Assembly: GCF_023238445.1 (NCBI RefSeq)
Contig: NZ_CP096658.1
Span: forward strand, 2,294,001-2,358,000
DNA length: 64,000 nucleotides
Source: Halorussus gelatinilyticus
Lineage (GTDB): Archaea > Halobacteriota > Halobacteria > Halobacteriales > Haladaptataceae
Direction of reading: 5' to 3'
Of this stretch, positions 21,146 through 36,555 are shown in pieces (position 1 is the stretch's first letter; each line of letters starts with the position of its first letter). The notes beneath the pieces were generated by a model. That model ran no database searches. It was given only the letters and a program-made list of their open reading frames with translations, and was not told the DNA's origin. Both the position numbers and the translations under genes were made by a program.

Positions 21146-22516
21146 TTAGTATTTCGGGTCTGCGCCGGTCGTCTCGTAGATGTCCTCCATCAGCGAGTCG
21201 CGCTTGCGCTGCCACGGTTCCAGTCCCTGCGGGCGACTCGGGTACTTCTCGTAGTGGTCGATGAGGTCGTCGGCGAGGCTCTTGGTCTGGTAGAGGTCGT
21301 AGATGAGGTCCCAGTGGCCGAACGACTTGATGGCGGTCTGGACCTTGAGCCACCAGCCGACGTTCGCGCTACCGGAGTAGAGCGCCTCCGCGAGCTTCGT
21401 GGCGGGGAGCGCGCCCAGCAGGCCCATCAGGTCGTCCACGTCCACCGCGGTCGAGAAGATGTTGTACACGTCCAGTCCGGCGTAGCGCGCGCCGAAGTGG
21501 TCCATCACGCGCTGGTTGTACTCCCAGAGGTTCGCCTCGCTCACGTCGCCGTCCTCGATGGCGTCCATCGCGGCCTCCGCCGCGTACTTGCCGGCGTAGG
21601 CAGCCCCCGCGATGCCGCCGCCCGTGGTCGGGTTGACGTGGCCCGCGGCGTCGCCGACCGCCATGAAGCCCGGCGCGGTCGCCGAGTCGTAGGGGCGGCG
21701 AGTCGGGAGCGCCGCGCCGAGTTTGTCCTCGACCGTCGCGTTCTCGAACTCGGGTCGGGTCCGGAGGTCCCGCTTGAGGTCGTCCACGAGATGCATCGGC
21801 TCCTCGGTCATCTGGAAGCCGAGTCCGGCGTTGATTTCGGTGTCGGTCCGCGGGAAGTACCAGAGGTAGCCCGCCGCGCGCTCGGTCGGCTTGAAGACCA
21901 AGGCGTCGTCCCACGGCACCGGCTCCTCGACCTCCACGATTTCGCGGTAGGCCGAGCAAAACTGCGAGTAGGTGACGTTCGTGTCGAACGTCGGGTCTTG
22001 GAGGTCGGCCTTGTCCTGCAGAATCGACAGCGACCCCGCGGCGTCCACGACGACGTCGGCGTCGTAGCGCTGGATGTCGCCCTTCCGCTTGCCGCGGACG
22101 CCCGTGACGCGACCGTCCGAGCGCTGGGTCACGTCCTTGACCACGGTGTCGTAGTGGAACTCGACGCCCGCGTTCTCCGCGCCCTCGATGATGCGCCGGC
22201 CGTACTCCCAGCGGTCGATGACCGCCAACTCGCCGGGCACCGGGATTTCGAGGACCGTGTTCTCCTGCGGGATTTCGAACCGGCCGTGGTCCACGCCCGT
22301 GTTCGTGAAGGACGGCTCCAGTTGGGACTTCGGGATGGCCTCGGGGAAGGCGTCCGCGCCCTTCAGGGCGTCACCGCAGGCGATGTGTCCGGCTTCCTCC
22401 TCGTCTTTGCGCTCCACGACGACGACATCGTACCCTTCGCGCGCCGCGGTCGCAGCGGCGTAGCAACCCGCCGTTCCGGCCCCGACGACGACGATGTCGC
22501 ACTCGTGCGTAGTCAT
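21146..22516 (-). CDS. Geranylgeranyl reductase family FAD-dependent oxidoreductase
   Basis: FAD-dependent enzyme that saturates isoprenoid double bonds, 456 residues. The N-terminal dinucleotide fold is 'DIVVVGAGTAGCYAA' with 'VVVVERK' at the end of the second strand. The second FAD motif 'GFMAVGDAAGHVNPTTGGGIAGA' is typical of the geranylgeranyl reductase family. The C-terminal helical domain ('SLADDLIDHYEKYPSRPQGLEPWQRKRD') is intact. In archaea such enzymes reduce digeranylgeranyl lipids or related quinones. A 2Fe-2S ferredoxin gene is divergent from it, sharing a 141-base promoter region, and is a plausible electron donor. Confidence 0.93.
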   Translation of the reverse strand: MTTHECDIVVVGAGTAGCYAAATAAREGYDVVVVERKDEEEAGHIACGDALKGADAFPEAIPKSQLEPSFTNTGVDHGRFEIPQENTVLEIPVPGELAVIDRWEYGRRIIEGAENAGVEFHYDTVVKDVTQRSDGRVTGVRGKRKGDIQRYDADVVVDAAGSLSILQDKADLQDPTFDTNVTYSQFCSAYREIVEVEEPVPWDDALVFKPTERAAGYLWYFPRTDTEINAGLGFQMTEEPMHLVDDLKRDLRTRPEFENATVEDKLGAALPTRRPYDSATAPGFMAVGDAAGHVNPTTGGGIAGAAYAGKYAAEAAMDAIEDGDVSEANLWEYNQRVMDHFGARYAGLDVYNIFSTAVDVDDLMGLLGALPATKLAEALYSGSANVGWWLKVQTAIKSFGHWDLIYDLYQTKSLADDLIDHYEKYPSRPQGLEPWQRKRDSLMEDIYETTGADPKY

Positions 22517-33542: not shown

Positions 33543-33617
33543 TGGGCGCTACAGGATTTGAACCCGTGGCAGCTTGGTCCGAAGCCAAGTACTCTGTCCA
33601 GACTGAGCTAAGCGCCC
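33543..33617 (-). tRNA. tRNA-Arg (anticodon TCG)
   Basis: Cloverleaf on the minus strand: acceptor GGGCGCT / AGCGCCC, D-arm GCTC/GAGT, anticodon stem CTTGG / CCAAG around loop CTTCGGA with anticodon TCG, T-arm ACGGG-TTCAAAT-CCTGT, discriminator A. The 3' CCA is not encoded (the following bases are TCC). It marks the downstream edge of the AT-rich accessory segment. Confidence 0.96.
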
Positions 33618-33990: not shown

Positions 33991-35307
33991 CTACGGTGGC
34001 AACGCCAGCGCGAGATGCGTCGCGACGGCTTCGTCGGCGCTCGGTCGCGACCCGTCCGTTCGGCGCGTGATGTGGTCGGAATCGGCCGGCTCGTCGGTGC
34101 CGAGGAGCGCCGCGAAATTGCGCCGGACGAGCGCGGCGTCGGTTTCGGCGAGAGCGTCGAACAGGTCGGCACCGAGCGCGCGCCGGAGGTCCGCGCGGAG
34201 ACTCCGGCCGGAGGCCGACCCTCTCTCGTCCCCGCTGGCCTCGCGGCGCGCACGCAGGCAGAGCCACGCTCGAACCGTCGCGGTCAGATACCGGCGGGCG
34301 AGTCGCTCGGGGTCGGGCGCGCCCGGAATCGTCGCGAGGTAGGCCGCCGCGTTCGAGTCCGCGACGGCGACGTTCTCGCCGACCCACTCGCGGACCGCCG
34401 CGGCGGACGCGTCCGGGTCGAGGGCGTCGGCCGCTCGCTGGCAGAGTTCCCGCTCCTCGTCGGCGACACGGTGGAAGGCGTCGCCGACGACCACGGTGTC
34501 CGCGCCGGCGTCGAGTATCGCTCGGGCGCGGTCTCTGGAGTCGATGCCGCCGCCGTACCAGAGTCGGGACCACGTCAGGCCGTCCGAGATGGCGTCGAGG
34601 GTCTCGACGGCCTCGTCGCCGCCGAAGGTGCCCGAGTACTCGAGGTAGAGGAGTTCGCTTTCGAGGTGGCGCTCGGCGGCCATCGCGCGCTGTTTGGCCT
34701 CCCGAGGCGCGAGCAGGTCCGACTCGGCGACGTTGGCCTCGCGCGCCGCGGCGCTGTCGGGGTTCTGGATGACGTAGGCCTCGAACACCGCGTCCGCGAG
34801 GAGCCACGAGGTGGCGAAGTCCGCGAGCGCGTCTTCGGCGAACGCGGGGAGCCACGGCAGTTTCTCGCGGAGCGTCTCGGGCACCATCTCCTCGCGGACG
34901 TACTCGGTGGCCTCACCCAACTGGCCGACCAGCGACTCGGAGTCGCCGTTCAGCACCTCCGGGATGGCCAGCAGGTCGGCCCGTGCGCGGGTCCGCGGGG
35001 TGACGTGGCGCGGGCCGCTCGGTTCGTGGAACACCGGGACCGAGGCGGGCGCGAGCAACTCGAAGGTCTCCTCGGTGTTGGTCGCGGTCACGTCGGCCGA
35101 CCCGCCGACCGAGACCGCGCTGGTGTGGCGGAGATAGAGAGGGTAGAGCAGCGGGAGTTTCTTGTCGTCCTCGGGGTCCACCTTGGTGACGTGGGTCCAG
35201 TCGGCCGGAACCGGGTTGGTATCGACCGGCAGGGCGGTCCGTGCGGCCAGCGAGGCCCCGCGGCCGAGGCGACCGAGCAGTCGCGCGATGCCGTCGAAAC
35301 TCGTCAT
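33991..35307 (-). CDS. GGGP synthase (PcrB) family protein with C-terminal extension
   Basis: A 438-residue protein. Residues 38-285 follow the geranylgeranylglyceryl phosphate synthase/PcrB TIM barrel: glycerol-phosphate motif 'HVTKVDPED' (39-47), 'LLAIPEVLNGDSESLVG', 'LLYLEYSGTFGG', and the phosphate loop 'YGGGIDSRDRARAILDAGADTVVVGD' (251-276). The family makes the first ether bond of archaeal lipids. Residues 286-438 are an extension, mostly helical, not found in typical 230-250 residue enzymes. ATG 35307 is chosen by a TATA-like CTATTTATC about 30 bases upstream. It may be a divergent paralogue rather than the housekeeping enzyme. Confidence 0.85.
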   Translation of the reverse strand: MTSFDGIARLLGRLGRGASLAARTALPVDTNPVPADWTHVTKVDPEDDKKLPLLYPLYLRHTSAVSVGGSADVTATNTEETFELLAPASVPVFHEPSGPRHVTPRTRARADLLAIPEVLNGDSESLVGQLGEATEYVREEMVPETLREKLPWLPAFAEDALADFATSWLLADAVFEAYVIQNPDSAAAREANVAESDLLAPREAKQRAMAAERHLESELLYLEYSGTFGGDEAVETLDAISDGLTWSRLWYGGGIDSRDRARAILDAGADTVVVGDAFHRVADEERELCQRAADALDPDASAAAVREWVGENVAVADSNAAAYLATIPGAPDPERLARRYLTATVRAWLCLRARREASGDERGSASGRSLRADLRRALGADLFDALAETDAALVRRNFAALLGTDEPADSDHITRRTDGSRPSADEAVATHLALALPP

Positions 35308-35436
35308 ACAGGCTACGACCCACCGAGAACGTGATAAATAGCTCGCTTCCGAGAGCGCGAGGAGGCCCGTCTCGCTATCTCCGGCCGACCGAGATAACAC
35401 AACCCTGAAATACCGCGGCGGGCGACTCTCGTCCAC

Positions 35437-36555
35437 ATGGGTAGCGTTCGGTCACGAATCCCGGCGACTGCGCGGGCGCTCGTTGGCCACCTCGCGGAGT
35501 CGCGGGACCCGCGAGTGGCGACGATGGTGCTGCTCCGCAACGAAGTGGAGTCCGAGATAGCGTCGATGACCGAACGCCTGTTTCTGAGCGTCGAGCGCGA
35601 CCTCCAGCGGGCGCGCGAGGCGGGCGAGTTAGAGTCCGTCCCCGGCGCGGCCGACGAGCAGGCGCGCTTCGACTACGACACGCGACTCGTGTTGCCCGCG
35701 ATGCTGGCGCTCGGCCGTATTCACGTCGAGGCGGGCGACGTCCCCCTCGTCCGACTCGGCCGCGAGGTGGACCACGGACTGGTCGCCCGCGGCCGCGAGA
35801 CGACTCGGAACGTGGTGCGCGCGCTGCTGGACGGCGACATGCGCGACGCCATCAACGACGACGAGTACGAGGACTTCGAGACGAACCTCCGGCCGCGAGA
35901 GCGCGTCGCCGAGTTGGCTCAAGCGAGCCTACAGGAGGGCGTCGAAGAGTGGTTCGAACGCGAGGAGACCCCCGAGGAAGTCCGCGCGGCCTACGAGCGC
36001 GCGGTCGAACTCTCCGAGCGCCACCAAGAGGAAGACGAGGCGTTCCGCGAGTTGCTCGACCGGTTCCACGAGTCGGCTCCGGACTCCGAGGAGCGCGCGG
36101 CCGCGGTCGAAGCCATCCGCGAGGAGTACAAGTTCGCCGACAGTGACGGGGCGGACCTGTTCGAGTCGGCGACCGACCTGCCGTACTTCGCCACCCAGTA
36201 CGCCCGCGTCGGCGTCCTCTACGAGGACATGCTCAACATGTACGAGGCCGACCTCGGGATGCCGTTGGGCGAGGGGTTCAAGCGCGCTATCGTCCTGATG
36301 GTCGTCGGCGCACAGATCGGTCTCGACGACACCGACGACTATCCGGAGGACCGAGGGACGCAACTGACGCCCGTCACCGCGGAACTGAACGTCGCCGACA
36401 GTCCGGACGTCGGCAGAGCGCGCGTCAGGAAAATTACGAACGCCTACCTCGACCGGGCCGACGAATGTGCCGACGACGGCGACCACCTCACGCGCATCGC
36501 CATCGAGTACATCCGTCAGCAGTCGCTCGACCGCATCGAGCGGTTGGAGAGTTGA
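35437..36555 (+). CDS. Uncharacterised helical protein with prenyl-synthase-like Asp-rich motif
   Basis: A 372-residue all-helical protein, divergent from the GGGP-synthase-family gene across 129 bases. The C-terminal part has 'AQIGLDDTDDYPEDRGTQLTPV' like segment (292-313), which resembles the second aspartate-rich motif (DDxxD with trailing acidic-Gly-Thr-Pro) of trans-polyprenyl synthases. No first DDxxD motif of the usual kind is evident; 'INDDEYEDFE' (139-148) is a weak candidate. I do not recognise the family. The link to isoprenoid metabolism is an inference from motif and neighbour. Confidence 0.75.
   Translation: MGSVRSRIPATARALVGHLAESRDPRVATMVLLRNEVESEIASMTERLFLSVERDLQRAREAGELESVPGAADEQARFDYDTRLVLPAMLALGRIHVEAGDVPLVRLGREVDHGLVARGRETTRNVVRALLDGDMRDAINDDEYEDFETNLRPRERVAELAQASLQEGVEEWFEREETPEEVRAAYERAVELSERHQEEDEAFRELLDRFHESAPDSEERAAAVEAIREEYKFADSDGADLFESATDLPYFATQYARVGVLYEDMLNMYEADLGMPLGEGFKRAIVLMVVGAQIGLDDTDDYPEDRGTQLTPVTAELNVADSPDVGRARVRKITNAYLDRADECADDGDHLTRIAIEYIRQQSLDRIERLES

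Follow-up and report, generated by a model that had tools for sequence, protein, structure and literature searches.

A long-form GGGP-synthase paralog and a linked helical protein of predicted isoprenoid-synthase fold suggest a further ether-lipid branch in some haloarchaea

The synthesis of archaeal membrane lipids, which is started by the enzyme GGGP synthase (GGGPS), is usually regarded as one known pathway. The locus described here raises the question of whether some haloarchaea possess a further branch of it. In the stretch of 64,000 nucleotides of Halorussus gelatinilyticus DNA that was analysed (the window), a long-form GGGPS paralog (gene A) stands divergent to an all-helical protein of unnamed family (gene B), and the same genome carries a second GGGPS, of canonical form, at G000:C1:2135248. 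A preliminary description of this DNA had proposed that the two proteins may form an undescribed branch of isoprenoid-ether synthesis. From computed results, namely the family and active site of A, the predicted fold and invariant motifs of B, and the linkage of A, B and geranylgeranyl reductase (GGR) genes, we infer such a branch and its chemistry.

Gene A, a PcrB-family member by Pfam, fold and orthologs, occupies positions 33991..35307 on the minus strand (438 aa plus stop), and gene B, whose isoprenoid-synthase-like fold is assigned from its model and Foldseek, lies at 35437..36555 on the plus strand (372 aa). They are separated by a divergent intergenic region of 129 bp (35308..35436), in which TATA-like boxes are found about 25-35 nt upstream of each start (TTTATC on the A side, GAAATAC/GATATAC on the B side); these boxes recur in most of the Halorussus loci examined and would constitute the promoters of both genes. 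The conserved ATG at 35307 is the start of the 438-aa A product; the GTG at 35436 taken as start in the list of open reading frames was rejected as being too far upstream. A tRNA-Arg gene (anticodon tcg, 33543-33617, minus strand) is located 374 bp past the end of A.

Gene A belongs to the GGGPS/PcrB family. It matches Pfam PcrB over residues 36-281 (5.5e-26, 91.9 bits, cut-off 23.9) and surpasses the cut-off of NCBIfam NF003199 (174 vs 169), and it fails the canonical haloarchaeal GGGPS model TIGR04147 (99 bits vs a cut-off of 300). Its fold matches include AfGGGPS (TMt 0.79) and PcrB from S. aureus and B. subtilis (0.74-0.79), with values of 0.74-0.80 for the two kinds of barrel overall; MoeO5 is also among the matches. 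The residues essential in AfGGGPS are D13, Y124, Y165 and E167 (PMC9385802); in AfGGGPS numbering, D13 is kept in 38/38 long-form A sequences and the other three in 37/38, with one gap, and K11, S169 and V214-G215 are likewise kept. The catalytic region of A itself (34639..34776, minus strand) holds Y178, Y221 and E223 in alignment with Y124, Y165 and E167, and the active site is intact. The preliminary description had seen here a PcrB barrel followed by an extension of about 150 residues, a reading that stands: the barrel ends near residue 283, and about 155 residues follow it (284-438; 33994..34458, minus strand). They are modelled as helices, with good order until about residue 350 and moderate conservation over 284-350, and the Pfam scan returned no family for this extension on its own. 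Furthermore, A possesses an N-terminal helix and a helical insertion of about 25 residues within the barrel.

Which prenyl chain would this enzyme use? W99 is the chain-length limiter of AfGGGPS, and B. subtilis PcrB, with Ala at the limiter position, uses C35 (PMC9385802). The position of W99 corresponds to codon 133 of A (Ala; 34909..34911, minus strand), and among the 38 aligned long-form sequences this column holds Gly in 29 and Ala in nine, with no Trp; the canonical haloarchaeal form is shifted in this column of the alignment, and its Trp was read by eye. As the limiting Trp is replaced by Gly/Ala, as it is in the C35-using PcrB, we infer from the alignment that long-form A would take a prenyl chain longer than C20. 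In the account of Peterhoff et al. (2014) given in PMC9385802, the limiter of haloarchaeal GGGPS is Trp in IaH1 and Leu in IaH2. The short haloarchaeal paralogs have Leu, Met or Phe in the limiter column, an agreement with the Leu reported for IaH2 that supports the alignment at this point. By its limiter, which is Gly/Ala in 38/38 instead of Leu, gene A is not IaH2. The short paralogs themselves (L025-L032 and others from scattered haloarchaea), which are apparently IaH2, share the helical insertion with long-form A and lack the extension; they occur mostly in genomes without B.

The nature of B is less easily approached. Neither Pfam nor NCBIfam has a family that it matches, and there is no meaningful match among PDB sequences; a PDB profile search with 63 relatives gave only noise, PF00348 was absent from the families listed in the Pfam scan of these relatives, and HHalign of the B profile against 17 prenyl synthases, in local, global and low-mact modes, found nothing (probability 0.4%). 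These profile-profile and PDB profile searches thus detected no sequence-level homology to prenyl synthases. No description of B was found in the literature searched, a body to which most subscription journals do not belong. Since the profile-profile comparison was empty, the case for B is built on fold, motif anatomy and context. Its AlphaFold model is confident (pLDDT 93.9, pTM 0.91) and almost wholly helical, in agreement with the all-helical protein of unnamed family first described. The structural comparison could have contradicted the proposed kinship, and it sided with it: the best 50 Foldseek matches in the PDB are all trans-prenyl-diphosphate synthases or their relatives (probability 0.93-1.00, with modest E-values of 3.6e-3 to 5.1e-2 and TM mostly 0.35-0.5, up to 0.51/0.57), headed by medium- and long-chain prenyl diphosphate synthases and with MoeN5 at rank 36. 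Moreover, an independent viral fold library placed two trans-prenyltransferases on top. The model thus predicts an all-helical isoprenoid-synthase fold for B. It is not assignable as a prenyl diphosphate synthase, as it lacks both profile membership and the IPP-site residues; even so, it may act in the manner of a class I prenyltransferase.

The motifs of B were paired with those of the synthases by reading two alignments and the limits of the helices, rather than from a computed structural superposition. Haloarchaeal prenyl synthases, when aligned, show their motifs in the sequence GGKR.RP, L..DD..D..(x)RRG, KT and AFQI.DDVLD. In B, Y-D-T-K/R-L-x-L-P precedes helix 83-98, and the end of helix 113-140 bears D132-G-D134-M-R-D137-A-I-N140-D141 (35830..35859, plus strand; family pattern A-L-x-D-G-D-M-R-D-A-x-N-D), a candidate first aspartate-rich motif that is one Asp short of the canonical DDxxD (GDMRD) and in which D132, G133, D134, D137, N140 and D141 are invariant in the 63 relatives. 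A candidate KT diphosphate-binding pair opens helix 251-273 (residues 252-253; 36190..36195, plus strand); it is Ala-Thr here and Lys-Thr in most relatives, within a wider (K)T-Q-Y. At the end of helix 279-305 stands D297-D298-x-D300-D301-xxx-D305 (36325..36351, plus strand), within residues 293-307, QIGLDDTDDYPEDRG, for which the family pattern is A-Q-x-W-L-D-D-x-D-D-x-x-x-D. The likeness of this stretch to the second aspartate-rich motif of polyprenyl synthases, noted at the outset, is in keeping with its location at the C-terminus of the matching helix, and it is not a chance motif, given that D297, D298, D301 and D305 are invariant in the 63 relatives and D300 is kept in 62/63. From the T to this second motif there are 44 residues in B vs 40 in the synthase L141. 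Altogether, the invariant motifs of B fall at the helix positions of the metal and diphosphate motifs of the synthases, with both acidic motifs at helix C-termini. In prenyl synthases, Arg residues hold the IPP. Of the IPP site, B keeps Lys/Arg 83, the Arg of LRP is Leu/Met and RRG is absent; the loss of these arginines favours an acceptor other than IPP.

The expectation that A and B would be paired across genomes was confirmed. In a sample of 146 genomes from the order Halobacteriales, long-form A is present in 22 and B accompanies it in 22/22; B is found without long A in seven further sampled genomes (genera g21 and g31). Counted by genus, the co-occurrence of B with long A is 7/7 vs 9/57 (Fisher 1.4e-7). 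Among 71 named haloarchaeal loci carrying B, A adjoins it in 43 (divergent in 19, co-directional with B ahead of A in 20, convergent in four) and is 3.7 kb away in a 44th; the arrangement of L065, L094 and L124-L126, whose reading frames were over-extended, was set by hand from start codons. That the two genes remain neighbours while their orientation varies points to a common function of A and B. The correlation between the A and B distance matrices is moderate (r = 0.65). A is missing from the neighbourhood of at least 18 B loci whose flanks are complete; together with the seven genomes with B and without long A, this indicates that B does not need A. Among 295 sampled genomes of the phylum, none outside Halobacteriales had B. 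An apparent B-A fusion in L132 (808 aa) was rejected because its frame crosses a run of N.

Beyond what had been observed at first, lipid-reductase genes are also linked to B. In about 35 loci a gene of the GGR superfamily is directly divergent from it. In loci of the Haloarcula/Halomicrobium/Salinibaculum type this neighbour is, by the curated haloarchaeal model NF041385, a digeranylgeranylglycerophospholipid reductase (over the cut-off in 4/4 scanned neighbours, 767-787 bits vs 700), and loci of the Halovenus/Halorhabdus type have a different GGR paralog in this place, which shares about 57% identity with the housekeeping enzyme. This second paralog, seen at L074:8498-9874 and in similar loci (Halovenus, Halorhabdus, Halapricum), is divergent to B and distinct from the near-universal gene, and could possibly be a reductase dedicated to the proposed lipid. 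That two different lipid reductases adjoin B suggests that it works on isoprenoid lipids even without A. Within the window, a gene of the housekeeping GGR family, near-universal in the sampled haloarchaea, is located 12 kb from A (21149..22516, minus strand); because of this wide occurrence, and because only certain Halorussus genomes have it close to A and B, its membership of the unit was rejected. A separate contig of one Halorussus relative encodes a third prenyl synthase of PF00348 (L160, G108:C3:85469-86083).

Taking these layers of evidence together, the chances seem about even that A and B catalyse two steps within a single isoprenoid glycerol-ether lipid route of some haloarchaea, with B as a class I prenyltransferase. 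In such a route A would join glycerol-1-phosphate to a prenyl diphosphate via an ether bond. B would be a metal-dependent enzyme whose two acidic motifs, presumably facing each other, would ionise an allylic diphosphate, and it would most likely pass the prenyl group not to IPP but to an acceptor lipid, namely the product of A or, where A is absent, that of the ordinary GGGPS; a GGR would afterwards saturate the chain. The chain length, the chemistry and acceptor of B and the order of the steps are thus deductions from the computed results. The pair probably makes or modifies a membrane lipid that nobody has described. If so, a lipid step would have been overlooked in common, culturable haloarchaea, and B would be a conserved, prenyl-synthase-fold partner of GGGPS that sequence searches miss and for which the Pfam and NCBIfam libraries used have no entry.

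Other readings of B must be weighed against this one. It could be a divergent prenyl diphosphate synthase that has retained IPP as a substrate and supplies A with a C25-C40 donor, a view for which its fold, with medium- and long-chain synthases as the top matches, the Gly/Ala limiter of A shared with the C35-transferring PcrB (PMC9385802), and Lys/Arg 83 before LP, which recalls the GK..R IPP site, all speak. Nevertheless, B has no counterpart of two features that never vary in the aligned haloarchaeal synthases, the Arg of LRP and the RR following the first motif, and B is also present without long A, so that we hold this reading to be rather doubtful. The same loss of IPP-binding residues, the common fold superfamily and the independence of B from A in some genomes would suit a class I terpene synthase or cyclase, or a phosphatase-like enzyme acting on prenyl diphosphates, regulated together with lipid genes yet without action on the product of A; that B has come to lie beside A repeatedly, in three orientations, and beside two distinct GGR genes, and that its second motif is DDxxD and not NSE/DTE, makes this unlikely.

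Non-catalytic small subunits of prenyl synthases that lack the Asp motifs have been described (PMC7839719), and B might likewise set the chain length as a silent partner of A or of a canonical synthase. A fold without sequence similarity, as in those small subunits (about 15% identity, PMC7839719), and an adjacent partner gene agree with such a role, but the acidic residues of B are invariant, and we regard it as improbable. Lastly, a second GGGPS, IaH2, is already known from haloarchaea whose lipids are C20-C25, in the account available through PMC9385802, so that A might be a mere extra GGGPS for these known lipids, with B as a helical protein unrelated to it that happens to be encoded next door. 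The IaH2-like short paralogs (Leu/Met/Phe, without extension) form a different group, mostly without B, and neither the A-B linkage nor the fold results for B would be expected; very little weight can be given to this explanation.

Compared with known systems, A shares the barrel fold and the catalytic residues of AfGGGPS and PcrB, and differs by its extension of about 155 residues, its N-terminal helix and its helical insertion; the limiter position is W99 in AfGGGPS, Ala in PcrB and Gly/Ala in long-form A. IaH1 and IaH2 are of the same family and hosts, and, as far as the account cited above describes them, the long form alone adds the Gly/Ala limiter, the extension and a B partner. B resembles the trans-isoprenyl diphosphate synthases (PF00348) in predicted fold and in the positions of the acidic motifs and KT, but has no detectable sequence similarity to them, no IPP-binding Arg and no RRG, and GDMRD replaces DDxxD. 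As to the reductases (NF041385/GGR), B has no direct GGR neighbour in Halorussus, unlike the roughly 35 loci named above.

The closest known arrangement is found in the moenomycin route of Streptomyces, where MoeO5, a PcrB-family barrel, makes ether-linked farnesyl-3-phosphoglycerate, and the ether-linked chain then receives a second prenyl group from MoeN5, an enzyme of trans-prenyl-synthase fold (PMC13096315, PMC7839719). There, too, a PcrB-family barrel is encoded with a trans-prenyl-fold enzyme, and this same pairing suggests by analogy a similar division of labour for A and B, in which B, by fold similarity and partner gene, may be likened to a MoeN5-type prenyltransferase. In a module of this kind, which we propose tentatively, A would make a long-chain prenylglyceryl phosphate, B would place another prenyl group on the chain or headgroup of this lipid, and a GGR would saturate the product; equally tentatively, this product would be an archaeal ether lipid, branched or extended, of a kind not yet described, and B the founder of an unnamed family. 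The likeness has its bounds, as MoeO5 and MoeN5 serve an antibiotic pathway of Streptomyces, whereas A and B are archaeal and have a lipid reductase as neighbour.
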